A DNA stretch of 64,000 nt, from positions 1,550,001-1,614,000 of the forward strand of contig CM065887.1 in assembly GCA_033439255.1 (NCBI GenBank), read 5' to 3'. The translations under genes and the position numbers were made by a program. Below the pieces are notes generated by a model. The model saw nothing but the letters and a program-made list of their open reading frames with translations, made no database searches and was not told the DNA's origin. Shown here one piece after another: positions 7,894 to 33,076 of this stretch (the stretch's first letter is position 1; each line of letters begins with the position of its first letter). This DNA comes from Hericium rajendrae. Its lineage: Eukaryota; Basidiomycota; Agaricomycetes; Russulales; Hericiaceae.

Positions 7894-8700
7894 GTGAAAC
7901 CGCCGACGACTGGCATCGAACTGGGTGAGCCCCATACGGCTGCCACTTACGAATCACCAGAGTCTGAGCCGGACTTCGTCGATCGCACGCTCCACAACGA
8001 CATCGTCACCACCGCGATCCAGAACGGCTACGAGGCAGGTCTGATGGCTGGGCGAAAGTCAGGTTTCGCGAGGGCATGAGGGGTTGGTGGGAAGCACGAA
8101 GGCAGGACGGAGCGCGCGTCATGAGGAGGGTCCGAGCGAGTGCACTAAGCAGGGTAGCCTTGAGGTAAGCACCCCCGCATCACTCGCCATGTCAATCGAT
8201 GAGATCGACACTGACTTCCTCATGCACATATGCAAAGAGGCAGAGTATGGGGTCTGGGAGGAAGGACTAGAAGCAGGGATAACGATGGGGAGGAAAGAAG
8301 GCAGAAATGACACATACCGGGAGGGATACAAAGCCGCGAAACGCGAGGCGAGTACCGCAACCAGCGCCCCAGATGAAGCTCCTGCAATCGACACATTCCC
8401 GCATCTCATGATGTCTTCGACACCCCGCACCAACTCGACACCCCCTATTCCATGCCTCGCACCACAGAGCTATTGCTTGCTCCTGGACTGTAACACCCTT
8501 GGCCTGCACCCATTGTCCCGATACCGTGCAGAGTCTCTGACCGTGCACGGGACAGCACACCGGTTGACCACGCATTGGTCCGAGATGGCCTTCGTCCTCA
8601 TGCTACCCTGCGGAGGCCAGCCCCGCCACCGGTGTTTGGTATACCAAAGCGAAAGGCTCGCAAAGCTGCCCGTCGCTCCAGGATTGATTACTTACTTTCA
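7894..8700 (+). pseudogene. Decayed A-family/EEG-type gene copy
   Basis: Short frames 7894-8079 and 8084-8700 encode glycine-spaced charged helices (NGYEAGLMAGRKSG; WEEGLEAGITMGRKEG). From about 8540 the DNA is clearly homologous to 2400-2563, and the conserved tail GLRPxxxLRRPxPPPxFGIPKR is present, but in a different frame from the upstream helices. No splice pair joining the frames was found, so a frameshift is likely. Homology to the intact 279-aa gene covers only the tail. The helical part resembles a segment (YQQGWHEGYETGLDDGYSE) in the LTR-element ORF near 51.7 kb. Confidence 0.5.
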
Positions 8701-8900
8701 TGTATTGAACTGGTCACCCCGCTGGCACTATGCGGGGGTCACCGGCAAGGCAACAGGGGTGAGCTCTTACTTGGAGGAATGCTCAATGTTTACATCATAA
8801 GTGAGAAGGAGTTCCTTTCGGCGATGCGTGAATTAAAAATACATGTGGTAACCAAATTTCGTAATTCGAGCCAGGCTCCCCCACAGGTTCCGCGCACCCT

Positions 8901-10883
8901 TCAATCCTCTCCTGTCAACGGAGACTGCAGATAGTCCCATTCTACATCTGCAAGGCTTCGCAGCTCCTCCACCTGGTTGATCGTGATTGTGCAATGCTTG
9001 ATGACGAGAGTGAGCCGTGTCCCAAATGCCGCATAGCGATGGGACAGGGATTGCTTGAGAATGTAGCCAATGGCATAGGAAGGACGAGAAACCTCATATA
9101 TGGACCATGGACTATCCCGAGGCCTGGGGTAACTTGTATTAAAATCGACTTCCATGAACTCGATACGTAATAGATTTCTGAAGAGGTGCGGGAACGAGTC
9201 TGGCATTGGGACCTCGTCGACTTCATCTGAGTCCAGGATTGTGATCGGCTCGACTTCATCTTCCTCCGGAGGAGGGGGCATAAAGGAGCGGGGTGCGGCT
9301 AAAGCCATACAGAGCGTACGGCCACTGTCGCCCTTCACCGCGATGGTTTCAATGCCGGTGTAGGCATGGAAACCAGAGAGCCAGTCGCGAAAAGTGATCT
9401 TCTCGATGATGTAATTGTCCCAGTGTTCCAAACCGTGGTCCTCTCCAAAGTCCAGAACAAGATGCCGTATCTGACGTTTGGTCTCTGTGCTTGGGACATG
9501 ATTGAGGTCCTCTATCATGGGGCGCCTCTCTGGAGGTCTCTCATCGTCATACCCATCGGTATTGGCGTACACGACAACCGAGATGTTCGGGAGATCTGGG
9601 TCAAAGGTGGGATGGCCGGTGTGATCGGAGAAGGGAGGATATCCTGATAAGTAGATGTCCCAGGCTAGGTTATAAGAGATAAAACCGATGCGCATGCTCA
9701 GGGGATGGGGTGAGATGTGGCTATCAATGAATGTTGTGAGTGGGGCAAATTCGCCGGCCTGAGGGTGATCGCCGAGGATGAGGATATTGCAAGAGGGAGG
9801 TACAGTGATGTGCTTGATGACATGCGCCATGTGCAGGAATGATTTGTCCTGACATGTGAATTTTTGTAGAGAACCGAATGTGACCACAGGCACGACGGGA
9901 GGAGGGGAGGGGAGAGGAGGGAAGCAGTGGGAGAGAAACAGCATTTGAAGGTTGGACATCTGACCGAGAGCTTCGAGCATCTCTCTAAAAGCGTTGACGC
10001 TGGGTGGAGCAACAGGAGGTGCCTCTTCAGATGCTACATAGTCCGATGGATGGTCGAAAATAATCTTGTGGTCAGGATCAATATTTAGCAGATCTGATCG
10101 GGTGGATTTATTATTAATGTGGAGATTGGTGAGACCACGTAGAATACTCCCGGACCACACCGGGACGACGCAACGAAGCGTCATCTTACGTAGCAATGGA
10201 GCATGATTGTCGAAGAGGTCAGCGGGGAGCATATCGATACCTTGATAGGAGGACCATCTAGGGAGCGCATAAATCACCGATTCAATCATCGGGGCTGGAT
10301 GGGCCATGGATGGCCAGAGGTTTTGCATGCTGCTGACAAAAAGTTTTGGAGGGAAAGGTCGCGGATGCGATGGATTGTTCTGGAGAGCAGCTCGACAGTA
10401 TCCAAGGTAGGGGGTTCCATCTGGTGTAGGTGATAGAATAAGAGAGGGGCAGAGACCGGGACCGGATGACCATTGCGTTTCGCAATGGCGTACAGAGTCC
10501 GTCGCTGATGGTAGTCCAGAGGCTTGGATCCTCGAGTGCCCTGGATCTCAAAGTGCGGCAGACATGGGTGACATTGACCCACCCTAGGTCTTTGGGACCC
10601 GGCCGCTGGTTGGCAGCGAGAAAATGGACTATGCGCGTGCACACTTCGGTGGGGATGCAGATCAGGGGTGATAATCTGTTTCGCCGGGCACGAGCATCGA
10701 GGGTGAGGAGGAGTAGCTGGTTTAGCTCCTCGTCAATGGCAGCTCGCTGCTGTTCTATATCAACTGGGTCAGGGTGTACAGGAATCCTGGAAGGGGATGC
10801 GAGTAGTCAGTAATCCAAACATTGATGGATGAAAGATCCCGCCGGACTTGCCTCAAGATCTGGAAACTTGATCCGGTCGACAT
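8901..10883 (-). pseudogene. F-box-type protein gene, frame broken
   Basis: After a short first exon (ATG at 10883) the coding exon follows the intact F-box paralogue at 27748-29667 from end to end. It has IPTEV...LGWVNVTHVC...DPSLWTTI near the N-terminus, a long leucine-rich body, and the same ending (QSPLTGED against QSPLTAED). Two frame changes occur relative to the paralogue. One is near a C-run at about 10408-10415 and one is near 10330-10345, and neither has usable splice sites. The remaining 470 codons to the stop at 8901 are open, so decay is recent or the C-run is a sequencing error. F-box proteins normally bring substrates to SCF ubiquitin ligases. The orientation is opposite to the paralogue. 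Confidence 0.6.
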
Positions 10884-12100
10884 GATGTATTTTCGGGTGA
10901 CGGATACAGCAACAATAAGTAAGGGTAGTCGTCGAGGCAGAGAAAAACTAACAAACGTGGACTATGGATGAGCAGTTTATAAACAGCTGGCCAGGGTGAC
11001 AGGTGTGTGGCGTTATGACTACATTTGACCGGATTGACAGTTGCATGATGCAGCGGTGCATGAGAACCCCATATAATTGGTATGGACTGGTATACAACCG
11101 GGGTCAATTTTTTTAAAGCCCGTGTCCGGACAGCCCAGTCGGAAGGCCCCGAATCCGTGCCGATAAAGCTTTGGTTCCAGCCTGATGTTGTACAATTTCG
11201 TCGGGATTGTGTACCTGATCCGCTGAAATTCAGATTTTCTCCCAATTTTTTCTCCTTGGCGGGAACCCTGCAGGCCCCCATGTCCGGACAGTAACCCAGC
11301 TTCCGGCAAGCTTGGGCCAATTTGTCTTCACTCTAACCTAGCTGATGTGGAGCACGCGCGGCTATAGCTTAACCTTACAAGACATCGACAGTGTTGGGGG
11401 TCTCTGGCAAATCCGCTGCATCGTCGTGGGCTCGGTTAGAAAGGATGTCGCACTGGATATCTAGACAGAGCCAATGCGAAGGTCCCATGGTGGGCATCAT
11501 CATGTACCCGCTGAGAGATATCGAGATGGTGGTTCTTTCCGCCACGCCTTTTCAGTTTCATTCTCTCTAAATTGCAAGGTTAGGGTCGTGTATGGACCAG
11601 GTGCGCTCTGTGGAAGTGGACATGATACGCTCGCATATACATGGGAATACCTGGGTATCATAATCTGAGAAGACAGCACTATATCGAGGGAATGAGGCCG
11701 GAGTATGAACACGGTTTTACTCAGTACCCCCGCCAACCCATTGTGTCCCATTGACCTACCGCGAACCTAACTTTGTCTCACCTTCGTGTCCCCATTGGAA
11801 ATTTCTTACAATTTCCTAGTTCCTATTCTAAGATCCATACTTCCATACTGATATTCAATCGTTGGCGCTTAGCTGAACTCAGCACCAAAGCTATCATACA
11901 TTTGACGAGCCTTCGCTTGCGTTTCTCTCACCCTGGGCATCCGGAGGGATGGTATATGAGGCACTCAATAACTCTAATTGAGCTGCCCGAGATTCCAAGT
12001 CCCGCAACTCCCGGAGCAGGGACTCTCTCCGATCCGTTATCCACCTGATATGAGCTAGATAGCAAATGAATATGGTTCCGAAAAAAAGTGAGAAAGAACC
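10884..12100. other. Intergenic, nothing clear
   Basis: No coherent exon chain is visible. The word TGTCCGGACA occurs near 11107 and 11282, in keeping with the CCGGA-rich character of the DNA from here to about 33.4 kb. Terminal inverted repeats of the KDZ block were looked for here and not found. Confidence 0.4.
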
Positions 12101-12239
12101 ATACCACGAAGTGCACCTTTGATCCAGATAATCCGGGATTTCTCATCGACCGGTGCTCTCGGAGGCGGGGGTAGGAATTCGCTATCGGGAAGATCCTACG
12201 AAGAACATCAGCGAGATGTCTCTCAAATCTTCACCTGGC

Positions 12240-12805
12240 TCAACTCACCTGGCCGAGGGCCGCCAACACCGATGCAGAATGTGGAACCGGGGTGCGTAAG
12301 CCATCCTCCATTTCAACATCCTGAGACGTCGGAACCTGCTCTTGAGAGGGCGGCACATCTCCGACATTGGACTCCGCATTGGCCAGGTCGGCAAGGGGGC
12401 GTCCGTCAGTATGCCCTGGCATTCCCCTGTCAGTTAACTCGGTGCGGACTGGAGGTAATGAATCGATGGTGCCATCTGTTTTACTACAATATGGTCAAAC
12501 GTCAAATGTCACACCGAAAACCTGATCTACATACGGTAAATTGTCCTGGCTCCCCTCCACTTCGGAGAACTGATCACCCAACTCCATCATCAGGTTCTGA
12601 AGATTGTCAGTTGCCTCTCGCTGATGTCCAATGTGATCCCACGTACCATGCCTTCCTTCAACTGCCAGTCCGACTCCTGACTAAGCGGTGGCACACTGCT
12701 CGGCGCTGCATCCTGGCCACTCATGTCTCCGGCCACATTCTTCTCACCAACAAGCTCTGTGTCATGCGCCAAAGCTTGAAATCCTCGATGTGTGTTGATA
12801 GGCAT
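12240..12805 (-). CDS. Small acidic unrecognised protein, exons unresolved
   Basis: Coding-like pieces lie in order on the minus strand. The first runs from ATG 12805 (MPINTHRGFQALAHDTEL, then PPLSQESDWQLKEG). Next is a piece around 12610-12540 (LQNLMMELGDQFSEVEG) and then one at about 12434-12245 (RPLADLANAESNVG ... SQDVEMEDG). They are serine-, glutamate- and glutamine-rich and probably disordered, with one helical segment. The splice between the first two pieces would need an unusually short intron, so the model is incomplete. It is divergent to the A-family gene at 13294, repeating the arrangement seen at 342-2563. Function unknown. Confidence 0.35.
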
Positions 12806-13293
12806 CACCGCAAGGATTGTACGATTTATTCAACAATCGTCAGAAAGACACAAAGACCTATGTAATATGCGGCATACCCATATTACTTCCGGAGCTCACG
12901 ACCAGAGTTGAGCAAAGGACGGTAGGCTGCAGGACGTGAGGACGAGGGGCGGAAGGGGAGATGGAAGCTGTGATAATGCGGAACCTCTCTTAACACCGCG
13001 TGTAACGGGCATGCACAAGGTAGGTCCGATCGGATTAGGGGCGTGGGGTTCCGGTCCGAAAATGACAACACAAACACGAATGATCCAGACCCACCGGACT
13101 ACGCAACATCAGTCATCTGATCAATGGTGGCTTGAAACAAAATTTCAAACCTCTTGCGGTCCACGCCTGCGATGACGTAACACATGACAATCACTGCATG
13201 GGTGACACGTTGGCAGTCCAATTGTGCATCTTGATCCCCTTCTGCGTCACTCTCTCTCTCTCAGACTTTCATTCTTTCTTACCTCTGGCTGCT

Positions 13294-14841
13294 ATGGACA
13301 GTGTCAACGTTCTGAATGCCAGCTACTTGATCTTGTCGGTGCGTGTTGGGCTCGCACTTCATGCTGCTAGCAGAGCACCTGTTCGGTTGTCAGAGCATGC
13401 ACGGCGTGCCTGGCAGACAGAATTCACAAAAGAAATGGTATGCTCTTTTCAATTCACTGGTCTCCACGTTGCTAAACTATGTTCAGGTCTCAGCAAAGAG
13501 GATCAGGGAGTCGGCCATGGAGGCAGGTGTCAGGGAAATGATGATGCTGACCCCCGGGTATATCGCCACACAGCCCGCTACCTCAACTTCTTGCAGAGCC
13601 AGACGGACCCGGAAGGCTTATTCGATCTACGCCAGCTCGCAAGCTTTCTTGATCCTCAGGATCGCGATTTGAACGTCAAGGCGCAAAATATGGATTTGGG
13701 CCTGCGCTGGTGGGAGAACCGTAAGCTCGCTATTGTAATCTGCAAGGATGTAGCCTGACATTGTCCCTGATAGCGGAATTACTTGTCCCTGCACATGATG
13801 CCGTCCGCTATTCGACTCCGGACTCCCTCGTCGATTGGTTTGTCAATTCGTGGTGCAGCAATGGGGATGAGACAAATCAGGGAATGACTCCCCCACCAGA
13901 CCAGCCTGTGACGCTCCAGCAATGCAGTCATTGTCCGACCTGGGTATGCTCCCTGCCCGCATGTATCCCTTACAGTTTCCCCATATAATCAGTCTACTGA
14001 CGATGTGCTTGTTCAGGCGAAGAGAGCGAGGAAACCGAGGAAAGCCAGTCAGGCCTCCCCCGGTGCCAAGATTGGCCCTCCTCGGTCACGCATGGTTCAC
14101 AAGCTGCCCTATCATTCATTGGCCAGTTCCACGGAAAGTCAGGTTCTGCATCCCGATGTTGTTCCCGCATCACAATCTGCATCGACATTCGCATCTAGGG
14201 CGGTCGCGGTGGGTCGTTCAATGCAGCGGTCTGGTCTTCGGCCACGCGAAGTACTCCGAAAACCGTCTCCGCCGCCCAAATTTGGCCTGTATAATCGGCG
14301 GCGCCAGCCCAGTAAGAAATCTTGGTACAACCCGTACCTAACCGAGATTCCTTTTGTGGGTGGATCTCCTTGTCCGATGATCCCCCTCCTGACAGTTGAG
14401 TTCTGGATAGCCATTTCGATGCAATGGCTGCGTGAAACACGGTGACCGCTGTGCCACCCAAGAGGGCCATCCAAATATCTGTATCGGTTGTGACATCCGT
14501 CGGGAGCGTTGCAGCCACAACACACCTCAGAATCGTAGGGCCCGGAATGCAGCACAACACCGGGAGGCATTCAGGATCCATATCCAAATCACAGCATCCG
14601 GCTGCCTCCCGCTCCTCGAGCGTTGCCGGCCCATCCCGTCCCAGGAAGCCTGCGGCTAACAAGGTCATTGTCGGTATGTGTGTACATATCATTCCCCTTC
14701 CTTCTAACATTGCTTGTAGAGATCCTGAAAGAACCCACACAAGGGCGCATTCAGGCCGCCAAACCCCCGTCAGAGGTTGATCTGCAAGCACTACTTGCGG
14801 AGATGTCTCGGGCGAGTTCAGCAGACCTGGAATTTGTGTGA
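13294..14841 (+). CDS. A-family protein, possibly frameshifted
   Basis: Related to the 279-aa gene at 1525. It starts DSVNVLNASYLIL, has the same second-exon start (VSAKRIRES), and a middle segment ending GLRWWEN. The tail appears near 14230-14300 as SGLRPREVLRKPSPPPKFG, then continues in a longer C-terminus that may end at 14841 (LLAEMSRASSADLEFV). Between VSAKRIRES and RHTARYLNFLQSQT the frame changes at a C-run (13551-13555) with no good splice pair. One inserted base would restore the family alignment, so this is either a young pseudogene or a sequence error. It converges on the KDZ transposase. Function unknown. Confidence 0.45.
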
Positions 14842-15135
14842 CGGTTTGTAGAGGGGGAGGCGCACCAGCAACTGCAGTGAGATGTACCCAAGGACAGCAA
14901 AAAGGGAAGTCATGCTGCAACTAAACGTACACACAGTAGGACCGGGACTGGCTTGAGATACTGTGTTGTTCCTGATTCAATCCGACCTTCCGTGAGGCGT
15001 GCTCCATTTTTGGTCCAGCCATCTGCCTGAGAATAATATTACTTGTACAGTCATTCTTTGTGATGTTTTTAATGCACATTCTTCGTCTCCGGGTTTGATA
15101 CCACAAATCAAAAAGGCATGAACATTGTTGAAGTA

Positions 15136-18100
15136 CTATTGTGCCAATGCCTCTGCAAATGCACTCTCTGCCTGATTGGCCATGCTAATCCAGAGTGCCA
15201 TCTGTCTGGAGGCATAGCTTTGGTGCCCTGGATCTGTGTTGTTGGCCTTCCATTTTCCCCACCGTTCTGCCCTCTTGGTGAAGTAATTGATCGTTCGTGC
15301 CATCTCCCTTGGAAGGGCTTCCCGCTCCGCACGCCATTGCTTCATCTGGGCCCGAGACCGTAGCCAGTGAACACGATAAACTACAATTCTCCATCAGTGA
15401 CAGGGATCATGTTGAATGCAGCAGACCGGACCCACATTCCATTGTCCATTTACTGTCATTCTCGCCTTTCCGTCCCAGTCTCCAGAACCATGAAAGAGGT
15501 TCATTACGAGATCCCCGCATGCTTGAGTCAATGACAAATGTCTGCGCCCGTAAGTCCGACCGGTGCAAGACCTTATAAGTCTTCAATGTGTCAGAATCTG
15601 CAAGCCCAAGGCTGTTTAGAGCACATCGTGCTCGGTTGTAGACACGGCACTGCTGTTGGACAACCTTGTCCGTAGTCTCAATATCTGCCCAAGCCCTTGT
15701 CCGCTTTCGTTGTGATCCGCGGGCCGCCCGCACCTTCGTCCGGAACTGGAATGCCTTCTCGCTGAGAGCTATACGGAGCTGACTAAGCGCATCGTTCATT
15801 TGCCCGATCCGAAGGTCAATTTCCTGTTCCAACACGCCGTGAAGTCCATGAGTAGTGGCCAGTGCCTTTCCCACAGTGGAGGGCAATGGAAGGGCAACGC
15901 GCTCTGGCGGAATTGCTGCATCGTCGTCGATGAGAGGTCTCGAATATTCAGTGCGGACGTCCTCCCATAGTTCATCGTATTCGGCGCCGTCATCGATCAT
16001 CCGTCCGATAGTGAATCCGGGGATCCAATCCTCGCCTTCGGACATGTAAGGCAGACTCCGCCGTTCAAACTGATCAATTTGGGTCTGCAGCCGTCGTCGT
16101 CGTTCTGCGATGGTGTTCTGCTGGTTTAATGTAGCAGTTTTACCAACGCTTCGGACGTATGCTGCCAGCTGTAGCCTAGCATGACCATTGGCTCCGTCAG
16201 AATAAAGGAATGGTAAATCGGACAACGCACTGAGCCTCTTCTATCTTGAGTCCCGAGTGAATCCATGCAGCGCAACCACGAAGCCTGTCAGACTCCACTG
16301 CAGCCACAAGTCGGTTTTCCATTTCCGCTTTTCCTGGTACTGTCTATGACATTAGCAATTGTTCTCCAGGCTGAGGATGGCTGGGAGCATACGTCCGTCG
16401 ATCTGCAGATCATATACGTCCATTGCTTTTATATCCCGTAAGCGGTTCTTCTGTGCAGTCTCTTCTATCTTCTTCCATCCATCATGGACGTCGTCAGGCA
16501 CTGTGTGATCAAAATCTGCGAATGCTGTCTCAGCAATCTCGAGACCTGTTGCTGACTTCTTCCACTTCTTGCACAATGACTTCACTGCTCCCGACTTTCA
16601 GTACTGGTCAGGGAGCTCATACAATGATCGAAACATGCATACCGCTGTGTACAAGCTTCTTCCAATTTGAGTCATTCATGTGATCATCCAAAATCTCCCT
16701 CCTGTGAGAGATAGACATCCCTCTCGTACTTCGTGAGATCTCGTTCAAAGGAGCCCACAATGTCTCCAATATCTCCCCATCCACCTGGCGTGCGCCCGGA
16801 ATGAACGTTGGTGAAAACCGAGCGAGGCATTCTTGCCGGTGACCGTGGATGTGGAAAAGACCAATACCGGATATAATTTCCATGTCCGGAGGTAGTTCCA
16901 AAAATTCGCTCCGGTCCACACGTGAGTAGAAATTGACAAACCACTGGCAAGCGATGTCATACAAGAGTCTCGCTGTAGTCAGACCTTGCGACTTGTACCC
17001 CAACCCTTGGCAGACGGAGTAATCCATATTGACTTGACTGCAGACTATCTGTCAGCACAACATTATCTTTGTGGACTGACAGAGAGATACACCTACCGTT
17101 CACCCTTTTGAAAGTCCACTGTCGTGTGTGGTATAAATGCCCCATGCATGCAGGCAGCGGACCCCAAACCGGATGAGTATAAATTACTCTTCCGGGCATT
17201 GGCTTGATTCACCGCGCGGTGGTCATTGCATGTGGATCGCTGTTGCAGGCAAAACGGTTACCGACCACATAATGCAATATGCTACTTAGTTGCACCTCTT
17301 GCCTGACCTCCCGATTGCTGCGGAGATGTTGATGGTATCTTTTGCTCTCGACCATGAACCCGGTGCCATTGCTCAAAGCGAAATCGTTGTCCGGTCTTCT
17401 CATCTTCTCCAGCTGGGCAGTAAAGTTGCCATCCTGCATTTGTATACGTGCATCGAGGTCACTGAAAACCAGCAGTCAACGAAGAGAACTGGATGGGAAA
17501 TAATGGACTCACAGTCGGTCTTCAGGCAGCATGTTTTCTCCTGGTTGAGGACATGTGGGACAGAATAATGCCAAGTCTCCATTTCCTGGCATGTCAGTGC
17601 GATGACCGAAACCATGCCATCGCATATACTGCAGGTGCCTCCATACCCGCAGAGACCGCATAAGTTCCCGATAACGGTCCTATGAGAATGTGTTAGTGCC
17701 AATGAGAGAACTGTTAAGGCATGCAACGCAACAGGAACCGAATCCGGAAAGGCAGGGTTGGTTAGTCAACGGAGCTTTCCGAAGAACTGGAAAAATGAGG
17801 TTTTGCATTCAAGATTGTCCAAACGACAGTCTTCTAACACCTGGAATGTGAACGCAGTCTGGGGCCGACGGAATGATGCTGGAAATAGATTGCTCCGAAG
17901 GAGTTGACGGTGCAGTGGTTCATCAGTAGAGCAATAGCAGTTCACCACTCCTAATTCGTGCACTCCGGACCGATCAACAATGGTCAGGATATGATCCGGT
18001 GTATCTTCGCTAGCATGGAGCCTCTGACTCCGGGCCTGACGTTCAGCCTCCGCCAAGGTATCTTCCTCGTTGACATGCTCCCAATCGGTGTCTCCATCAT

Positions 18101-19648
18101 CCTCATGGACATAATCATCGTCATCAAGGAGGCTCGCAGCTAGCGTACATGGCCGGTCCTTCTGGAAGACACCACATTCTATGGCTTCCTGTTCAGTCTT
18201 CGCCATGTAGGCAGAAGCACGTTGGAACTCGTCAAAGTGGATGGTAGGCACCGGACTTGGTGTCCTACAATTGGGCCCCGGTCCTCGGTGGTCGTCGTTG
18301 GACTGAGCTCCATTATGTGAGCGTGTAGTCATCCTTCGGGTTGATGATAAGGGTGTGGGTGGTGATGGGGATGGTTGTCGGCTGTGATGAGGTCGTGTGA
18401 TGAGGCGGCCGCGCATGGATTTGGAGGCAGCTGGTAGTGACTCAGCCTCAGATTCTGAAAGTACATCGGACACCAGCCCGGCTGATCGTCCAATATCCCC
18501 TGTGTCTCCATGAGTACTAGTGATGCGACGATTGGGGAGTAAATGCATGGATGTGGCTGGAGTATCAGTGTCAGAGTCATCAATGTGGGGTTCCTGGGAA
18601 GTCACAGTAGAAATGGTCCCTTCTTTCTCCTTCCGGTGGCCTCTACCAACATGGACGGTCTCTAAGACTGACCGGATATGTGACCTGCTGGTGTTGCTGG
18701 TGGTAGTCGATTCACTTGGAGACGGCGGACAAGTCGTAGCAGCCCGTGACACAACTTCTGAATTACCGATCTCTGAGTACCCATCCTCTGAACCTGATAG
18801 GATGTCATTCGTGGCAGGGGGTGAAGGGCCTCGGGAGGAAGAACTTGATGGTGAACGGAATGCTGTGAATGAATGGTTCGGGTCTTGAATAGAATGGCTG
18901 GATGGTCGAGGAGTCATCCCGGAAGAAACAGTCGTCCTGGATTCTGCGCTATCTGAATCATGGCCATTCCCAGCAATAGACGGACAGCGTGAGCCAGCAT
19001 GTCCCAGATATATGAGAACGCCGAGTTCACTGAGCCAAGCCGGCTCATAATGCGTACCGGTCCATTTTTGAACACGGTGGAATGGCAAATGACTGTGGCA
19101 CCTTTTACAACACTTTGCGCAGAATTGCGGACTGGAGAAGCAGTCCTTGCACCGCCATTCGGGTTTCCGTTTGCATTGCACTGTGGCGCATGTGTCCTCT
19201 CGGGCCTCACCCTGGAGAATCGTGTGAATGTAGTCATCTTCGGTGTCTGTCCATTCGGTCAGCCATGTTCGGTCTGTCTACATGAATGATATTAGGACAG
19301 AAATGAATTCCAAAGCTGGAGACGTACACGGGGTTTCCGCGGTTTAAGTGACTGGGCATGATACAGCTCCCAGTCTTGCTCGGTCATGACCGGAGCTTCT
19401 GGGGAGACGTGTGCAGCTCCATCGGCCTTGGCTGTAGATCCTTGGCGGGTAGTCCGTGACGAATCACCCTTTCTGTCAGCACGGGCACACTTTCCGCTTC
19501 CATTCCGGTCTGATGAGGCATCATCGGCCTCCTTGGTTTGCTTGGGTTGAGCCGCTGGCCGACTGACTTTCCGTGTTCCACGCCCAGTCTCAAGTTCTTC
19601 TTGCACGACGATCCGTATGCCACGGCCTTTCTTCACTCTGGGTGGCAT
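15136..19648 (-). CDS. KDZ transposase with CxC2 cysteine cluster
   Basis: Transposase of the Kyakuja-Dileera-Zisupton class, expected to cut and move the element's DNA in the nucleus. The start at 19648 opens a basic N-terminus (PPRVKKGRGIRIVV). The second exon (about 19280-17770) carries the CxC2 cluster (QCKRKPEWRCKDC ... CAKCCKRCHSHLP) near 19120-19200, then a long serine-rich linker. It ends in the segment PQTAFTFQVLEDCRLDNLEC. Downstream exons hold the RNase H-like core: YDIACQW near 16957, then FHIHGHRQECLARF, VDGEILETLWAPLNE and a C-terminal helical region ending SAFAEALAQ. About ten introns are needed. No internal break was seen in the exons I followed, though not every junction was resolved. 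It lies head-to-tail behind the TET/JBP gene, 157 bp apart. Recognition is firm. Confidence 0.85.
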
Positions 19649-19804
19649 CTATTAAAGCGGTAAAGAGGATATTGGGAAGGGGGAGCAAAGTCAGGCCAGC
19701 AACTGAAGAAAATGGTACTGAAGAACTGCAGACGGAGGAACAGCAGAGGAAGGGGATTGTGGGGACACAAGGAATCTCACAGCATCGGGGATAAGAATAT
19801 GCTA

Positions 19805-21403
19805 TTACAATGAAAAAGGTAATGATGCGTGAGTCTGCGATGACTCGTCCGTTACGTCGGGTTCGGATGGGATGTTGAACTGACTGTCATTGCACCAGTC
19901 CGGTGCTTTGACGATCATGCGCTCGTGCACTGCATCTCTCATCCAAAATGCATAACACACCCTGTCCGGTTCACATTCTGGGACTGCATGGATTACCATT
20001 TTTGAGCAGACCGCAGCTAGTGTCCCGGACCTGTATGCAAACCTCAGGTTGAGATTCTGGAGGTGCAGTTCTGCATCAGGATATGTGCCGATCGTCGCCA
20101 GGAGATCTGGCCATTCGGCGCGACCTCCCATATCTCTATGCGGCATGGTGGCCCGGTTAGAGATGATCGAGACACCACTAAATGCAGATGTCCAGTGGCA
20201 CATCACTTCACGAAACTCCGGCATATCTCTGAGCCGTTCCAACGTGCATATGCCAGCCTCGTGTAATTCTGGGTATATGACCCCAAGAATTGCACTCATG
20301 ATCGCGCCTGATTCCTGGAATGCTAGCAGCCATTCTTTTGCCCGCTGTGTCTTGAGGGAGACAGACGTGTAGAGGGGAAAGTGAGTGTCCTACAGCGAAA
20401 TCCAGGTACACACTGAATTCTACATCGACGATAGAAGGAAGGGTCTCATACCTCATGGCCGAGTGCAAACCATGCTGGGGACAAATCTACAAAGCCAGGA
20501 TGCAAGGTGCAGACTACCGGATTATGATAAAGGTTTTGAGCATGACGAGTCAGAGACTTCATGGCTTCGGACCTCGTTCCCTTGGACCTCGAGCCTGCTG
20601 CTTGCTTCGCGGACTTGACAATGCCCGATCCTGCTGGTCCTGGATTCGTCGGCCCATTCTTTCTGTAAATTTCAGTCCAGCTCCTTTGGAAGAGGGGCTC
20701 GAGGATCTTTGCAGCATTGAACATGATGGCCTGCACAAGCAATTGATCAACACAATGACGGGTGATGTCAAATGCGAGTTGCCACCTGTCGTTCCAGGGA
20801 CAGCACACCTGGTAGGTACCACACCAGGTGATTGGTGTGTGTATCCGAGACCGTCATTGGGACATCAATCAGAGGCCACGAGGTATTGTTGGTACCCCAG
20901 GTTAGGCCCGGGTAACGCCGGTGTAGGGATGCTTCTGTCGGTGAGTTGAGTCCGGTGTATTTCTTCGGAATGCGGCTGGCGTAACGCTGTGCATCCCAAG
21001 TCATCCGGACTGAAGTTACATCAGTTTTCAATCATCTCATTTTCAAATTGATACACATACTACGGTTTAGAAAAGCAGCAACCAACTCCCGGGCAATATA
21101 ATCCAGCTCGCAGCGCAGGCTGGATGACAGCATCCAGTATGGGATCGGGGCAGGATTGGCAAAGTCGACCTTCTGGTGGTTAGCCAAATAGCAATGAAAC
21201 ATGTGTTTCAGATAGATTGAGATTGCTTCGACTTCGGACATCTCACTTGGGGAATGAGCGGAAATGAGGATCAGCGCGGAAAGTAAGGCTGGTTGGTCGC
21301 GGTCTTTGATGTGGCAGAGGTTTGTCACCAAGCATTCGGCTATCCACATGTGCTTCGGCAGGAGATTGCCGGTGATGGATTCCTCATTCGGCCTGTACAG
21401 CAT
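19805..21403 (-). CDS. TET/JBP-family 2-oxoglutarate dioxygenase
   Basis: Fungal TET/JBP enzymes oxidise 5-methylcytosine in DNA using Fe(II) and 2-oxoglutarate. The last exon (about 20310-19805) has the diagnostic order: SNRATMPHRDMGG with the metal-binding His/Asp of HRD at 20140-20132, the distal His in SKMVIHAVPE at 19990-19988, and Arg in DRVCYAFWMRD. Upstream exons include LSPAWFALGHE near 20470, VWYLPGVL near 20820 and an N-terminal helical exon from 21403. The start at 21403 is the first ATG of that exon, and a further 5' exon cannot be excluded. Basidiomycete TET/JBP genes are known to ride with KDZ transposons, and here the transposase is the next gene downstream. All metal ligands are present, so it may be active. 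It is divergent to the gene at 21576. Confidence 0.82.
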
Positions 21404-21575
21404 TGGACAAAGATCGGATCATATTGGTTACCTTTGAAGACCGTATGTCTGAGGACGTACATGAAAAACAAAAAAAAAGTCAGTCCATGTCGTTCCGCTG
21501 CACTATAATCCATTTGCTGATCAGTTTGCCTTCTTCCGCCCCTTCCCTCAGTTCGCCCCTCCTACTTTCAATTTA
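21404..21575. promoter_or_regulatory. Short divergent promoter between TET/JBP gene and partner
   Basis: Only 172 bp separate the two start codons. This leaves room for one shared bidirectional promoter and suggests co-expression. No TATA box stands out. Confidence 0.4.
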
Positions 21576-24407
21576 ATGCCGAGAGGTCCCCTTCCACAGA
21601 AAAAGTCCAAGTCTGTCAAGACTGATCTGTCGGAGGACGAGATTGACTTTCTCAAAACACAGTTGAAGGCCTTTAAGGAGACCGGGAAGGCTGGACGACG
21701 TCGTATCATTACGGACCTCAAGGCACCTGGTGGTCAATTCTTTGGCCGTTTTTCATACAGGGGTCTTGAGTTGACCAGGGTCCAGCGGGTATGCCTGCAT
21801 CTGTTGATGAGCTGTCGCTGCTAACTCACTTTCGCTATATAGTTGATACACGAGTGGCTGCTAAAACATGGCAGGCACCGGCTTCGGAAGGCGGACTCAT
21901 TTAAGTATGTCCGAACATGGACACTCAAGGCCGTAGTCCAGCACATGGAACGCGATGCCATCATGGAACATGCCAAAGTACTATCTGGTGGTGCGCAGCC
22001 TGGAAGCAAAGCCCACATTGCGATCTACTCCCGGGCAGTGAGTCAGGTGATGAACAACCTTACTCCGGACAAGATGACCCAATATGAGGAGTATGCTGCA
22101 TTGTGGACAAAGACGGAGGCTCCTCCTGATGTGCAGGCCAGGTCCGTACTGTTGCTGTATGTCCAGTATCTGTCCTCATGTCGTCTCTATGCAGACAAGC
22201 ATCTAAGCATGCTGGCGAGTACACCAAGTCGTTCGCCACACAAATGCGGTCACATCTTGGGATGTCCGTAGTGGTCCTGGGGACATGGCTAGACGAAGAG
22301 GGGACGGCGGTGGTCCGGAAGTATGATCTAACCTTTTCCATAGTCGAGTGATATTGAATGAATCCAGGTTCGATTACAACGGTGACCTCGGACGGCCAAC
22401 CCTCGCAGAAGCAGTGAAGGACTGGGATGAGCAGCCAATGATGTCGGCCTGGACATCCTATGCCGAAGCTCTATATGGTATGCAGAATTTCATGCTTTGG
22501 TCTGCGGTGCTGACTCCAGAAGGTCCCGGGGATGATTCCAATGAACCGGGCCACGCAGTAGAAGTCCAGGAAACCAACTCTACAGTTGATCTACAATCCA
22601 GACGGAGGTGTTACAATACCTGCGGATTTCGAAGAATACACGCCAGATTTGTTGATATCGCTGATAAGGGAGTTTCTAACCTTTCATTACGGTGTGTATT
22701 TTCTGTGATGAACATGCTTGGCCCGGCTAATGCATTAATTCATCAGCACGCGCCAATCCGAAGGCATCGGCAATTCCCTGGGCGAAGATAAAAGCTGACG
22801 GCTTCGAGAACTACATTGACCCGATGTACCTTCCTACGGGATACGTTTGGGAAGATCCATCACGCATTAATAGGCAGGAACTCAAACCCATCATCGAATT
22901 CTGGCAGAACCGGGAGTCCGATGGCCTCACTGTATTAGAGTTCAAGGCGGTCGTCGTGAAGGGCGAGTGGACCCCTGTGATGGAGATTCCATCCGACAGC
23001 GAGGGCAACACCGGGGGAGGAAAGACTGTCCGGATTCGTCGACGGAAGGAAATTCAAGCGCGGTTTGCAGACCGGGATGTGCCCAACCCTCAGGATGTCT
23101 CGGACGCGGAAGCTGAGAAGGATGTCGAGATGGTTGGCATTCCCTCGGGTCGCAAAAATGCTCGGACAAAGGATCATAATGGTTACGACGAACATGGAGA
23201 GTTTTTCGACCTGAGCTCTTTCGGATCTGAAGAGGAGGATGTGGATGATGTCGAAGACGTTACGCCATTGGAAACCAGTCTACGAGTGACAAATGCTGGG
23301 AAAGCTAAGGCTTTGCAACAGCTTAGGGAACGGCGTGCGGGGACCATGCCTTCGAACAATAAGTCCAAAAACAAGGCTCGGATTGATCCACAAGTCGGTC
23401 TGGACTCAGATGGCAGTCCGCTGAAAACACCAGGAAACTCGGCAAAAAATGAAAAAGCCAAGTTTGCCTTCCTCAGCGGTCTTTCTGGACTGCAGTTGTA
23501 TCAAGACCTCGTGCTGGAGATCTCATTGTGCAGGGTACGCTGTCCCAAAATATATGTCATGTTGGTTATTTGATCATACCTTCAGCAGGGACATCGCACT
23601 ACAGCAGACCCAGACCATCCTGACTGGGCTACATTTGACTATCCAAGGCCATGGTTGCCGCGCCATGTTCATGCCAATGTGAATCCCAAGTCTGAGATAC
23701 AGTGGCTATTGGACCCCAAGACGCCTTGGCGTAATTGCGATGGAGACATCTTGAGCAAACCAGCACTGATGGAGGTGGCCTTGGCGTATGGGCAACTGCT
23801 CCGGGATCTTGAAACTGCACAGATGGGTGCATCGGACTCTGATGATGAAAGTCGGCCTGATGCAGGGGTCCCGGACTATGTTCAGAACTCTACAATTCCG
23901 TTCCGTTACCTCGGAAAGTATGTTGAACCGCAATGCATTACCATGAAGGAGGATCTAGAGAATGCTCGCACAGCATACTCTGAAACCACTGGAAAGAATA
24001 TGTTGCCTGCAGCTGCACCATCTGCTGGTCCCAGCAAGAGAATTCGCAAACAGGCTCTGCCTGCTCGGGCTCAGATCGAGAAGAGGGGAAAGGTACAATC
24101 ACCATCGGATGCCCCAGCTGCACCTGAGAAGCAAAAGTCACAGCATCAGTCGTCCCGGGCTGCACCCCCTCCAGCCGCCTTGTCTGAAGCCCTGCTTGGC
24201 TCTCCCAGCAAGCGGAGCGGCCGCACACGGGTGCCCACTAAGAAGATGGCAATGTGAGTATGCCATGTCATTGACTGGTGGAAATTCGAAAATCATTGTT
24301 GTCGTAGGATCATTCCAGAGCAGACGGCCCAACGGGAAAAGAATGCCGCTGCTTACAAGAAGAGACAGGAGACTGCGGAGAAAAAGAAGGCTGCTGCACG
24401 TCGGTGA
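21576..24407 (+). CDS. KDZ-associated unrecognised protein, multi-exon
   Basis: I cannot name this family. Exon 1 starts PRGPLPQKKSKSVKTDLS and continues through LTRVQR. Exons 2-3 (VQHMERDAIMEHAKVL; KHAGEYTKSFATQMRSHLGM) form helices. A middle exon reads LIYNPDGGVTIPADFEEYTP, and a later one has FENYIDPMYLPTGYVWEDPS. A long acidic and serine-rich stretch follows (about 22980-23560). The last exons are basic and end IIPEQTAQREK ... KKKAAARR at 24407, with a clear coiled-coil character. At least seven introns are needed, and not all borders are resolved (one near 22500 is unclear). A DNA-binding or scaffold role is only a guess from the basic ends and position beside the TET/JBP and transposase genes. 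Confidence 0.6.
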
Positions 24408-24680
24408 GCCTTCTGATCCAAGAGCCAGGTTTTGGTGCCCTTGGACAATGTCTGCTGCATTTCTGTGAACTGCATGGGCAACCGGTCTGCGATGATGTGC
24501 TATTTGTTCCTACGGCATAGGCTTAGAGTACTTTCGAATAACACAGTCATGAGAGTACAATGCACTGGTATTGATTCGCTTGCTCCGCATCACTCTGCTC
24601 TGAGTTCCAGGACATGTCAGTGTTCATGACAATGAGATGGTCGATGGCCATACCAAAGCCGCAGCCCGCGGCTTGAGTGA
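24408..24680. other. Intergenic, right flank of the KDZ block
   Basis: No gene is seen. The stretch ends in a GGAAGGAAGAAAGGAAGG simple repeat (about 24680-24705) that borders the LINE. No inverted copy of the 11-12 kb DNA was found here. Confidence 0.4.
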
Positions 24681-26130
24681 TGAAGGAAGGAAGAAAGGAA
24701 GGTTTATTCCGCAGTGGTCCCATTCCGGAACAGAGCGGTGTTCATACTACATAGTCAGGCACAAACTACGCTATGTACACTCAAGTCATGTAACTACTCC
24801 GATCGCTGTCGAGGATGACGCACATAGACGACAAAGTAGAAAAGACAAACACACAGAATTGAACAGAGAGAGCAGTGTAGCGGGTGAACTGATGAAAAAC
24901 CCACACCAGGAAAATCTCTTTTTGAGGGAAAAACCTGTGTGTGGGTAAACCAGGCCGCCACAAGACACATGAATCACGACCCGATGAAAGATCCATGCAA
25001 AGGAAAACCTCAGATGAGACCAAAACCGACGCCATGGCAAAACCGGGTCAGTACCGAGCGGCGGGGATGAGCCCGCGGCAGGAAAACCTCCCGCGAGGGT
25101 AAACCCATGCGCGCGAGAACCTCGTGGCTATGAGACCGGGTCAATCCTAGACAACGTCCCATAGAGACACGACAAGAGTGTGAGGGACCGGCCAGCGCAC
25201 GAGCAAACAGAGACATACCACATGCGAAACTTGTGCAGAAGCATGAATGAACACGGCCGAGGCAGCAAAGACCTCGAGCACATCGAAGGTGAACTTCGCA
25301 AGCATGTCGAGGATGCCCCGCTCGCGCACAAGGCTCTTTGTGATCGAGCGTGTATCGTGAGACCCGAACAGCGTACGAGAGCGCGTTGGACCCAGGAACT
25401 GAGAGGCACGTTCGAGGAAGGAAGTGCGGAGGGAGCAAAGTGACGGGTGAGCACAGCATTCCAACAAGGCATGTTCGGGGGATTCTACAGCTGCTTTACA
25501 GAAGCGACAAAGGCGTCAGCATCGCAGGATGCGAGGCTGATGTGCAGAAGGACGGCGCAGGTCCTTGCAAGCCAGATGGTGGTCGGTGAAGAGGAGGCGT
25601 GTGAGGGCTAGTCGGTGAGGTGGGATTCGGACCTGGAGATAAGGCCTGAAATGGAAAACCGGCTGGCTGGGCAACTCACCGTGATGTACAATCTCCGTCC
25701 GTCCATTCAAAAGCGTCGCACGAGGGGAAGCGTTGATGACAGCAGACCAATGTGTGCGCATGGAAGCGGTAACACGTGCGAGAATGTCTGGTATTTGCTT
25801 TGCTGTCAATAACGGACAGCATGACGTGTACCGGGAGAGGCAGAGTGTGCAGGATATAAATAACGTCTGAAGCCCATCCGGGCACGCCATCAGCCGCCAA
25901 GTGGAGAAATGCGCGGAATGCATGGCATACGAGGCGGTCCGGCGGCTGCAGCGAGGCGTAGTGAACGAATGGGAGGAGGAGGAGTTGCACGCGGCGATAG
26001 CGCAGCGGTTCCAAACTTGTCTCGGTATAGAGGAAGGCGAGCGTCGACCGGGCGGAGAGACCTAATAAGTGGCGAAAAAATGCATGCTGAACATGCTCCA
26101 AAGATGCGAGCAAGGTTGTCTGCCTCGTGT
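24680..26130 (-). mobile_element. 5'-truncated LINE (non-LTR retrotransposon), 3' part
   Basis: The minus strand encodes the region after the reverse transcriptase of a fungal LINE, with VQHAFFRHLLGLSARSTLAF and FLYTETSLEPLRYRRVQLLL near 26090-26000. Further on comes the C-terminal zinc-knuckle area with the ending LLECCAHPSL near 25460. The pieces are in different frames, so the copy is decayed. The 5' end stops near 26130, before any polymerase motif, which is the usual outcome of incomplete target-primed insertion. The rest, to about 24680, is 3' UTR with an AATAAA word and a TTCC-type simple repeat. Target duplications were not identified. Confidence 0.65.
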
Positions 26131-26137
26131 CGTCTAC

Positions 26138-26298
26138 GTCATGCTTATTCGCCGTGTATAGGCTAGAATTGGTCTATGTGGTGCTTGTTCGCCGTGCATT
26201 TAGGCGACAACTGTTCTATGTGGCGCTTGTTCGCCGTGTATAGGCGACAACTGTTCTATGTGGCGCTTGTTCGCCGTGTGTAGGCGACAACTGTTCAT
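26138..26298. repeat. 40-bp minisatellite, four copies
   Basis: Units start at 26138, 26178, 26220 and 26260. The core is GTGGCGCTTGTTCGCCGTGT followed by a variable base and AGGCGACAACTGTTCTAT. Each unit contains the inverted words TTCGCC and GGCGAC. It abuts the truncated LINE end. Confidence 0.85.
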
Positions 26299-26570
26299 GT
26301 GTTCTTGCTCAGGACAACTGGTCCCATGTAGACGTTTCACGTTGAAGATCATTGCCGTCTGGGCTGTTGGTCCGGGCGGATTTCCAACACCTTTGCACCC
26401 TTCTTCCTGCAAGCTGCAGATGGACATTCCGGGTGTCGACCTCAAGTCATTTCGCAGTCGCCTGCTCGTGAGTAGTATAAATATGTCCCTGTTCCTCCTC
26501 TTTCTCTTCACTGCTATCTCTTCCACCCGCTGCTTCCCGTCTCCCAACCCACTCGCTCTTTGTGCTGATC

Positions 26571-27426: not shown

Positions 27427-27747
27427 GGTCCATCCATCGCGGCGCAGGCTCCACGTGGCTTTCAGAGGATCCTCATTATTAGATATGCGTCGTGTTTTGA
27501 TGCACGCCTTGTTTTGATGCCCGCCTGTTTGCTTGTTATTGATTCTCTAGGTCCGCAACTGTCAGCCCTGTCATGTCGATGTAACGTAGTGTGACTGTTA
27601 TTCTCCCTTGTGTGTAAGCCGGACACTTCGTGTACTTAGTCCTCCTCCACTCAATTCCCATTTCTCTCTTCGTTACCAAATATCTGTGCGTTGAAAAGAA
27701 CACCATGTCTGACGGTACAATGCAAGTCTGCTCTCGATCCGTTGTCC

Positions 27748-29667
27748 ATGAATGGTAGTGTCTCACATCCCTGTTACAGGATCCCCACGCACACCGACCC
27801 GCATGATATCGAGCGAGAGCGACGTCGGCTGGACAAATTAATAAAAAATGTAGATGGAGAGCTCGTTGCTGTCCGCGCCTGTGGCAACGACCCGCATGGC
27901 ATGGGGGACGTCATCCGAAGACTGAGGACGGACCGCACTGCCATCTGCACCAAGCGAAATACACTATCACCTCTTGCCTGCATCCCCATTGAATTGCAAA
28001 ATCGTATCTTGCACTTCTGCGCTGCTAACGAGCCAGCATCCATGAAAGGCCTGGGGTGGCTTCACATCACGCATACCTGCACCTTTCTCCGAGTCGCCGC
28101 ATTACAGGATGGCAGCCTGTGGACAAATATTTGCACGGGATTATCTCAGCCCTGGAGAGAAGCCCTGGTGGAACGCTCCCACTCACTGCCCCTGTCCTAC
28201 AGGGATGTATATTGGAGGCATAACATCCCCACCCCGCATACCGTTGCACTCCTGGCGCAATGCATGCGTCGCATCCGCCATCTTTCCCTTGTCAACTTTA
28301 TCTCAGGTTCCTTCAACCTGATTCGATCCCTGGTCCATCCGGCGCCGATCTTGGAATCGGTATTTCTTGCAGTCCGGTTACGGAGCGGCCGTGTGGGTAT
28401 CCTCCCCGCAGACCTCTTTGAAGAGCAAGCGCCTTCGCTCCGCATGATGACGCTACATTACCTTGTCCCGACATGGTCCGCATCATTCATGCGCAACCTC
28501 ACCAAATTGCACATAAATAATCACTTCACGTCAATTTCCGACGTTATGAACATTGATTCTGAACATGATGGCATTCCCTACGCTGAATCCGAGCATGAGC
28601 CACCCCCTGCTGCTGGTCCATCCCCCGAGAAGGCCTTTCTCGATCTCATCCTTGCTTTATCGCAAATGTATGCACTAGAGACATTGTTCATGTCTCACTG
28701 CTTCCCTTCCCAGCCTGACCCCCCTCCGGACGTGCCCATGGTCCAACTGACTCGTCTCCGTCACTTCACATGTGAATCAAACTCATTCCTCCACATCGGC
28801 AATGTCATCCAGCATGTCCACATACCTCCCTTATGCGATGTCTTCATCCTAGGCTATGCCCCTGAGGTGGACGATTTTTCCACCGTGACCCATTTTCTCA
28901 ATAACCATGTTGCACCTTATCCTATGACGATGCGAGTCAAGCCTGTCTCGTCATCTGAGTCCTGGGACCTGTCTTTCTGGGCCGATGTCCCTCTCCCTCA
29001 AGACACGGACTATCCCCCTGGCAGTGCAGATATCCCGTGCGCACGTGTGGTCGCCCATGTCGCCCGCGGGAGGTCTGAGGGAGTATTGCACAGGCACCTC
29101 CTCGAGCCCTTGGACCATTGTCCAAGCCCAGAGACTAAGGTCTCCATCCGACACCTGATCGTGGAGTCCGGCAAGGATCACGGTTTAAACTGGGCCCGCA
29201 AGTCCGGCCACGAGAACCTGCAGTCGAGCAACTGGATCTCCCATTTTGCCAGTTACACCAATATTCACACTGTATCCGTCAAGGGCGACGTTGGCCGCAC
29301 ATTATGCATGGCACTTGCTGCCCCCTGCTCGTACATGCCGAAGCTAGAGCACGATGAAGTCCAAGAAACGATACCCCCGGACTTCCCGCATCTCTTCAGA
29401 AATGTCACCCAAATCCATTTTTCAGAAGTGGATTTTGACACTGAGCATCCGAGGATTGAAAACCGTGAATTCTTTGCCCCTCGTCCTTCTTACGCTGTTG
29501 GCTACATTCTCAAGCAATCCCTGGCCTATCGCCATGCAGCGCTTGGGACACGGCTCACTCTCGTTATGCAGAACTGTGCAATCACAGTCAGCCAGGTGGA
29601 GGCCTTGCGAACCCTTGCGGATGTGGAATGGGACTCTGTGCAGTCTCCGTTGACAGCAGAGGATTAG
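27748..29667 (+). CDS. F-box protein, 639 aa, single exon
   Basis: Likely substrate adaptor of an SCF ubiquitin ligase. After an N-terminal coiled coil (DIERERRRLDKLIKN) comes an F-box-like segment, CIPIELQNRILHFC ... LGWLHITHTCTFLRVAALQD, then a long leucine-rich body with RLRHFTCESNSFLHIG and IPPLCDVFILG. This is the architecture of the large F-box family in Agaricomycetes. The frame is open for 639 codons. I took the ATG at 27748; an upstream ATG at about 27704 with a short intron, as suggested by the paralogue, is possible. The minus-strand gene at 8901-10883 is a broken paralogue. The two face away from the KDZ block. Confidence 0.75.
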   Translation: MNGSVSHPCYRIPTHTDPHDIERERRRLDKLIKNVDGELVAVRACGNDPHGMGDVIRRLRTDRTAICTKRNTLSPLACIPIELQNRILHFCAANEPASMKGLGWLHITHTCTFLRVAALQDGSLWTNICTGLSQPWREALVERSHSLPLSYRDVYWRHNIPTPHTVALLAQCMRRIRHLSLVNFISGSFNLIRSLVHPAPILESVFLAVRLRSGRVGILPADLFEEQAPSLRMMTLHYLVPTWSASFMRNLTKLHINNHFTSISDVMNIDSEHDGIPYAESEHEPPPAAGPSPEKAFLDLILALSQMYALETLFMSHCFPSQPDPPPDVPMVQLTRLRHFTCESNSFLHIGNVIQHVHIPPLCDVFILGYAPEVDDFSTVTHFLNNHVAPYPMTMRVKPVSSSESWDLSFWADVPLPQDTDYPPGSADIPCARVVAHVARGRSEGVLHRHLLEPLDHCPSPETKVSIRHLIVESGKDHGLNWARKSGHENLQSSNWISHFASYTNIHTVSVKGDVGRTLCMALAAPCSYMPKLEHDEVQETIPPDFPHLFRNVTQIHFSEVDFDTEHPRIENREFFAPRPSYAVGYILKQSLAYRHAALGTRLTLVMQNCAITVSQVEALRTLADVEWDSVQSPLTAED

Positions 29668-31218: not shown

Positions 31219-33076
31219 ATGACTACTACTTCAGAACTCCTCGGCAACCTTCAATTGCACGAGGCCCGTGTGGGGTGTGCCCTGGTCGCTTTGAAGAAGG
31301 CCATTGAGATTCAGCCGATGTCGAACAAGCGCCGGGAGTGGTGGCACCGCCGATTGTTGAAAGAATGTGTAAGTTCTGTTCTAGCTTTTAGCTTGTACAT
31401 TTAGCTTACTGGGGTCATGTTGTTAGGACACAGCGTCTTGCATCATTCAAATGCTCAAAGGGATGGACAAGAACAAGACATTCGCATTACCCCCGCTGAT
31501 CCAGAGTGTTGGCAGGAATTTGGTTGGTCTCATAAGGGCGAAGAGATTGTTGGATCCGAAGACCTTCGCGGGCACGGTGGACTCCTTTTCGGAGGGGAGG
31601 GATGATTGGTCGAAGTGTGTGGGGAGAATTCCATTGTCAGAGCGTTGGTGGGTTTCAGAAGATTTGGATCACAACACAACCGTGCCCTCCCCCTCTCCCC
31701 CAGTCCCGGGAACATCACGTGGGGCCACAGAACGCCTTCCTACCGAGTCTGTGCGGTCTGCTGAGTCCGTTGACGGTGGAAAGACACCTGCTGCGTCAAC
31801 CAGCAGACCGATCCGACCCCCTGCTGTACAATCCGCGGGACATGCCATCTTAGCAACGACTGAAATGGCCGTTAAGCCTGTCGGTTTCACATCTGCACCC
31901 CATCCGGCACCACTAAGCACTACTCAGAGCGCAACAACTGATGATCCTCTGGAGAGAAACGAGCAGAGGCCATCCGGATCTTCGATCACATTTACAGAAG
32001 ACCGCCGCATCCCAGCCCAGATTCCCTCTGGAGCTCCAACGACCCTGGCCCTGACTGCGCCGGCTCCACCAGTCCAGTCCGGCCTCCAAGTCGCACATAA
32101 TGAACAGCTCGATGTGGTTATGGCAGGCAGTCCGGGGGATCAGGAACTGGACCGACCCCATCACGCCGAAGCGGAGAGCTCTCCGGACGTGCAGGATCCT
32201 CCTGCAGGTAACGGAGCGGGAAAGAAGGGTAAAGGGAGTCCTATGCCCGATGGGCCCCCAGACGACCTACCTGTAGTGGTAAGCATATCTGCCTTTCTCT
32301 TGTTTGTTCCTGCATGCTAAAGTCTTCATTCAGTCCCCACCTTGTTCCCCCTGTAGTCGAAAGGGTACTCGATGCGTACGGTCTGAAAATTCGAATGGAG
32401 CATGCTGGTGGTGTTGGAAACGCCGGGCTAAGTGTCCCTTGGCAGGTGGGCGGGGCAAGACCCGTAGAACAGGCAAGAGAGGTTCCGACGGAGAAGGCGG
32501 GGAGCGGGAAGCCGGGGAGCAAGCGGCAGAACGAGCTACCAACGTCTCGGGACGGAAACGTAAGGTAATCCACTCCATCGCCGAGAGTATGGGGGCTCAT
32601 TAACCATATTTCTAGGCCCTCCGAAGTCTGCGGAATATGTTGTCACGGACGACGATGGAGCAGAACCAATTCCTGCTGCACCTCCTGTGGGGAAGAAACC
32701 CCGCACGCTGCCCCCACATCACCCGGACCGAGAGGGTAGTCCGTCTGCAGCTAGAGGATTGCCAGGCGCCAAGAACAGCTCTAATAGTCGTGTCACTCTG
32801 ACCAGTGATGTGAGCTTGCACTCAATTGGGGACCTCGCACAACGCTCATGGTCAACGGCGCAGTCTCTCCAAAGCCAGGTTGATGACCTCAAGGAGGAAG
32901 TGTGCAAGCTCCGAGGGCTCATCAAGACTCACGCACGTGACAACAGTTTGGGGCAGCAGCGCCTGGAGGAGGACTACGTTGTGCTGCAGGGCCAGATGCG
33001 AAACCTCCAGGTGGACCAGAACACGTTGAAGGACCAGGTGGCACACGTCACAAGGATCCAGGTCGAGAGTGCGTAG
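31219..33076 (+). CDS. Protein with Zn2Cys6-like cluster and coiled coil, 562 aa
   Basis: Exons 31219-31368, 31427-32278, 32334-32559 and 32616-33076 join in phase and give 562 aa. Residues 1-110 are helical (QLHEARVGCALVALKKAIEI; LVGLIRAKRLLDPKTFAG). A long proline/serine-rich disordered stretch follows. At about residues 335-375 lies C-x2-C-x6-C-x8-C-x2-C-x6-C (PCSPCSRKGTRC ... ACWWCWKRRAKC), the spacing of a binuclear zinc cluster but internal and with a WW pair. The C-terminal 100 residues form a coiled coil (LQSQVDDLKEEVCKLRGL). DNA binding as a dimer is plausible but inferred. The exact family is not recognised. Confidence 0.65.

Follow-up and report, generated by a model that had tools for sequence, protein, structure and literature searches.

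The linkage of KDZ transposases with TET/JBP dioxygenases is said to have been described first by Iyer in 2014. TET-carrying Kyakuja and Zisupton transposons of Agaricomycetes have since been published together with the idea that they counteract methylation (PMC12730594); an earlier note on this DNA had likewise stated that the KDZ–TET/JBP linkage is established in basidiomycetes. TET-positive Kyakuja elements were found in five orders of Agaricomycotina (Kojima 2025, PMC12730594), the so-called AG-type TET enzymes are present in both Kyakuja and Zisupton, and Kyakuja is described as having 7-bp duplications, CA..TG ends and no inverted repeats (PMC12730594). The same study argues that transposon-encoded TET enzymes help their elements to escape from silencing, proposes that those of the AG type have no target specificity, and states that CcTET oxidizes 5-methylcytosine (5mC) as far as 5-carboxylcytosine (PMC12730594).

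Two further sets of fungal KDZ elements are close enough to be compared with the locus analyzed here. KDZ1–KDZ3 of Cryptococcus neoformans share the KDZ transposase and are 9–11 kb long, with inverted repeats of 139–241 bp and duplications of 4–8 bp; they differ in carrying CxC1 rather than the CxC2 seen here, and the part of PMC12810828 consulted, which gives their mobilizing genes, mentions no TET gene. The KDZ transposons of Pleurotus ostreatus are similar in that CxC2 precedes the transposase, yet the part of PMC7641404 consulted mentions no TET gene for them either.

Composition of the five-gene block

The window, a stretch of 64,000 nucleotides of Hericium rajendrae (GCA_033439255.1, CM065887.1), contains five spliced genes spanning 11,894–24,407, sequentially arranged as an acidic gene (−), an A-family gene (+), a KDZ transposase gene (−), a TET/JBP dioxygenase gene (−) and gene 21,576 (+). 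Short introns and the KDZ transposase give the window a fungal character, and its gene content points to a basidiomycete. The splice models were built by hand for GT-AG sites and reading frame, so that these sites are not independent evidence; the unspliced minus-strand frames of 12.2–21.6 kb give the same KDZ, CxC2 and Tet_JBP domains in Pfam as the spliced models. Four of the five models have open frames, the exception being KDZ. Codon usage, compared over six frames per gene after training on KDZ, TET and two further frames of the window, places the modelled frame at the top of the six for TET, gene 21,576, the A-family gene and the acidic gene; for KDZ the modelled frame is not singled out, all six lying within 0.016–0.034. 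The earlier note had described five genes in about 12 kb beginning at 12,240. The spliced models uphold the five genes, but the proposed start has to be abandoned, because the last exon of the acidic gene (12,054–11,894) falls beyond that limit and the block runs further, to 11,894.

The KDZ transposase gene (15,136–19,648, −) is modelled with 10 exons and 1,336 codons, of which one is an in-frame TGA. It encodes a KDZ domain (PF18758, E 6.6e-44, 150.6 bits against a cut-off of 26.6, residues 682–903) and, in the same spliced gene with the stop entered as X, a CxC2 region (PF18803, E 1.3e-22), in agreement with the previous description of a KDZ transposase with a CxC2 cluster. With both the KDZ domain and the CxC2 region present, the locus belongs to the KDZ transposons. 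The KDZ domain contains the acidic residues D784, D806 and E867, which we take to be the DDE catalytic residues. The TGA lies at 17,768–17,766 (codon 611), ahead of the catalytic domain, and because of it the transposase is probably broken in this copy. The TGA may also be a sequence error, and an intron beginning at an upstream in-phase GT could excise it, at the loss of part of the CxC2-associated region.

The TET/JBP dioxygenase gene (19,805–21,403, −), modelled with four exons and 475 aa, lies upstream of KDZ on the same strand; the adjacency given before is correct, and the distance from the TET stop to the KDZ start, previously put at 157 bp, measures 156 bp. Pfam identifies a Tet_JBP domain (PF12851, E 9.7e-18), and all metal ligands are indeed in place (His365, Asp367 and His415), together with the 2-oxoglutarate residue Arg424. 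Strong matches in the PDB are confined to CcTET of Coprinopsis cinerea (7vpn, E 2.4e-30; 8jkk, E 7.7e-30); 48 distinct sequences were listed within an E limit of 1, and the other 46 have E values of 0.62 or more. The alignment with 7vpn covers residues 112–455, i.e., most of the protein, and the metal ligands and most functional positions are kept. Among 18 CcTET positions compared by eye, 13 are identical (H326, D328, G331, D337, H376, R385, R321, T323, Y361, L339, V378, R205 and R393), whereas five are changed (F391W, W204T, R92K, R96L and S330G); the functional roles of these positions are taken from PMC11040006, except that of H376, which is taken as the downstream His described in PMC12730594. 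The features by which PMC12730594 defines AG-type TET/JBP enzymes are all present, namely the HxD motif, the downstream His, the relationship to CcTET, and Gly/Ser plus Asp at the CcTET 331 and 337 positions. The residues found there, Gly and Asp, occupy the positions tied to the joint 5mC/6mA activity of CcTET. The protein is likely an active 5mC oxidase, possibly also acting on 6mA.

Taken as a whole, the locus resembles published TET-positive Kyakuja (PMC12730594) in having a KDZ gene beside an AG-type TET gene with Gly and Asp at CcTET 331/337, and no long inverted repeats were found, with ends that are not fixed. It differs in that no pair of CA..TG ends flanked by an exact 7-bp duplication turned up, in that three accessory genes are present which the published text, as far as consulted, does not name, and in that the transposase of this copy is probably broken by the in-frame TGA. 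There is good support for the earlier note's view of the block as a KDZ transposon that brings its own TET/JBP enzyme, and elements of this kind are described in PMC12730594. In our view the block probably represents one copy of a KDZ DNA transposon carrying TET, most likely Kyakuja, which sits between two related genes and is decaying, and whose intact form would be moved by the transposase while TET counters silencing; the Kyakuja lineage is favored only because PMC12730594 reports Kyakuja from all five orders. In an intact element, the transposase would cut and paste the element, and TET would oxidize 5-methylcytosine, perhaps also N6-methyladenine, on the DNA of the family, whereby silencing would be countered and the family would stay expressible. 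The KDZ, CxC2 and Tet_JBP domains, the CcTET match and the four open frames speak for this reading. Counting against a TET-carrying KDZ transposon are the in-frame stop, the lack of any exact 7-bp duplication among the end pairs, a CpG loss that is not reduced, and the codon usage of KDZ.

Element ends and flanking sequence

Ends were sought as CA..TG pairs with the left end in 10,885–11,893 and the right end in 24,258–24,700, giving 3,060 pairs. None of the 3,060 has an exact 7-bp or an exact 8-bp duplication; one has an exact 9-bp duplication, CTTACAAGA at 11,383/24,351, and eight have a 7-bp duplication with one mismatch. Exact inverted matches of 12 bases or more are absent between 10,000–12,000 and 24,200–25,700, and the ends are not fixed. 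Two mutually exclusive candidates were compared. Candidate A (11,038–24,567), with CA..TG ends and a 7-bp duplication with one mismatch, encloses all five models; it ranks first of 2,176 pairs in a score combining the one-mismatch duplication with terminal similarity, calculated for the right range 24,408–24,700 only, and about 7% of 272 controls score at least as high. Candidate B (11,383–24,351), with CA..TG ends and the exact 9-bp duplication, has the wrong duplication length when set against the published 7 bp of Kyakuja, and its right end falls within the final exon modelled for gene 21,576 (24,309–24,407), itself uncertain. An exact 9-bp duplication of this kind occurs in 11 of 1,312 control region pairs, and 248 of the 1,312 contain an exact duplication of 7, 8 or 9 bp. 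Both candidates are weak, and neither was adopted. At the right edge, the CpG ratio rises from 0.54 (24.0–24.5 kb) to 0.76 and then to 1.05 from 25.0 kb, where sequence that looks non-LTR-like by eye sets in; this change fits the right end of either candidate.

Within 10,885–11,893, a single direct repeat was detected. This is CCCRTGTCCGGACAG, a 15-bp sequence with a palindromic core, TGTCCGGACA, which occurs twice on the plus strand just inside the left end of candidate A (11,119–11,133 and 11,277–11,291), a placement that speaks for A; the pair lies inside the element only if the left end is to the left of 11,119. Allowing up to three mismatches, CCCRTGTCCGGACAG has 10 matches against 3.86 expected, and its 11-base core with up to two mismatches has 25 against 20.69 expected, showing no excess.

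We do not regard an inverted pair at 8,840–9,088 and 29,728–29,480 as terminal repeats, since most of it lies within related coding frames of two flanking genes. These genes (8,840–10,806, −, and 27,640–29,667, +) flank the block head to head, are 80% identical over 249 bases, and are F-box-like by eye with no Pfam match. The segment at 24,600–26,300 is non-LTR retrotransposon-like by eye (RNase H-like on the plus strand and a reverse-transcriptase end on the minus strand), again with no Pfam match, and a 40-base tandem array (26,143–26,301) lies beside these fragments. Farther along the window are a 142-base sequence repeated identically in direct orientation at a spacing of 2.2 kb (50,635–50,776 and 52,876–53,017) and a frame at 59,341–60,513 (−) that looked JmjC-like by eye and has no Pfam family. 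Pfam searches of other window stretches gave nothing above cut-off, and the labels F-box-like, non-LTR-like and thymidylate synthase were assigned by eye.

The three accessory genes

Gene 21,576 (21,576–24,407, +) is modelled with eight exons and encodes 819 aa (pI 9.1); if its last intron is left unspliced, a stop codon closes the frame at 24,255–24,257. The A-family gene (13,294–14,841, +) has seven modelled exons and encodes 405 aa (pI 9.65), its first intron being uncertain since the frame stays open unspliced too, and the acidic gene (11,894–12,805, −) has five modelled exons and encodes 235 aa (pI 4.48). No Pfam match above cut-off was obtained for any of the three proteins; the best one below it is DUF4028 for gene 21,576 (E 0.0049, 17.1 bits against 25), and the A-family protein matches no family even at E 1. 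A PDB search gave no match for the gene 21,576 protein and no credible one for the A-family protein, whose single match has an E value of 0.79. The TET, KDZ and gene 21,576 proteins have no relatives in a viral contig collection, where seven stretches matched a pattern in one scan, none encoding a relative, and two stretches of prokaryotic genome contigs matched for KDZ, neither being a relative; such missing relatives say little because both collections are prokaryotic or viral.

The A-family protein contains a C-x2-C-x6-C-x9-C-x2-C-x6-C pattern (14,420–14,512), a cysteine spacing that is presumably that of Zn2Cys6 clusters; with no Pfam zinc-cluster match and only the spacing fitting, we did not file it as a Zn2Cys6 protein. 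The window holds the strict pattern at two places, the second being in a frame at 32,343–32,435, and 15 random sequences generated under the same dinucleotide model contain it nowhere; the two clusters themselves are only weakly similar (E 1.2). Gene-like frames at 31,400–33,100 (+) share this spacing and continue, by eye, into a coiled-coil-like stretch. The first 280 residues of the A-family protein align with a gene at 1,525–2,563 (score 143; 500 shuffles gave a mean of 40 and a maximum of 65), and a second relative is a fragment near 8,512–8,700. The A family is therefore not specific to the block. A gene at about 191–1,261 (−), divergent from the relative at 1,525, was tested as a relative of the acidic gene and rejected, showing no relationship.

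These observations bear on the extent of the element. It is possible, though we hold it to be doubtful, that the mobile unit is smaller, e.g., TET and KDZ only (about 15.0–21.5 kb), with some or all accessory genes being neighbors that belong to the host or to other repeats. A smaller unit would agree with the A-family relatives outside the block, with unfixed ends, of which those of candidate B would place the final exon modelled for gene 21,576 outside the element, and with the main text of PMC12730594, in which a term search finds no accessory genes named for Kyakuja. It is harder to reconcile with the tight and partly divergent packing of the genes (172 bp between the starts of TET and gene 21,576, and 294 bp between the ends of the A-family gene and KDZ), and both better-scoring end candidates, A and B, take in the A-family and acidic genes. 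A literature search over titles and the beginnings of abstracts did not find the accessory set named, which does not prove that it is undescribed, and the trio remains unexplained.

One far-reaching role for an accessory protein would be that the basic A-family protein binds the paired TGTCCGGACA palindromes (11,119 and 11,277) and brings TET to the element end, forming a self-targeted demethylation cassette. This logic is akin to that of plant Vandal elements, whose anti-silencing proteins act in a sequence-specific manner (PMC12730594). We regard it as highly improbable, and it is weakened because the palindromes fall outside the element under candidate B.

CpG depletion and the role of TET

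In 500-bp bins, the block has a median CpG ratio of 0.76 (27 bins), compared with 1.05 in 36–46.5 kb (21 bins, p 1e-7), and the ratios of the left flank (0.81, 4 bins) and the right flank (0.83, 15 bins) give p values of 0.41 and 0.055 against the block. The block was likely methylated in the past. No protection from CpG loss is visible in the block, where depletion is as in the flanks. The whole of 8,000–33,000 is CpG-depleted, with ratios mostly of 0.5–1.0 and of about 1.0–1.2 at 25.0–27.5 kb, and its CpGs are over-represented in CCGG. An excess of CCGG in the block (80 seen against 47 expected, ratio 1.69) was set aside as regional, given the similar ratios outside it (1.60 in 26.4–32 kb, 1.51 in 24.6–26.4 kb and 1.31 in 8–11 kb). 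The suggestion that the element edits methylation over itself is thus left plausible and proposed in print, but it gains no support here, as CpG is depleted to the same degree as in the flanks and a premature stop interrupts the transposase.

The unreduced CpG loss is in keeping with a TET enzyme that does not free the element, the oxidized cytosines being a further mark or spread untargeted across repeats, maybe along with repression. Published observations lend this some weight: heavily oxidized elements are linked to silencing of nearby genes (PMC8889193), oxidized forms mostly coincide with 5mC, also on retrotransposons, and action without target specificity has been suggested (PMC12730594). 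On the other hand, CcTET reaches 5-carboxylcytosine, so that removal is possible in principle, and PMC12730594 itself favors escape from silencing; we consider the further-mark interpretation rather unlikely.

The same depletion, together with the in-frame stop in KDZ, would also suit a dead relic from which nothing is expressed and whose open frames have merely not decayed so far. Such a state is at odds with the four open frames out of five and with the preserved catalytic residues of TET, and we think it rather unlikely. A decaying copy of a TET-carrying KDZ transposon remains the preferred reading. The kind of element that it exemplifies is published and not itself new, and a 2026 review describes transposon-encoded TET/JBP enzymes as functionally uncharacterized (PMC13297926). 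If the accessory genes do not travel with TET and KDZ, the block is one more copy of that published kind; if they do, they would be candidates for targeting or controlling transposon-borne demethylation.
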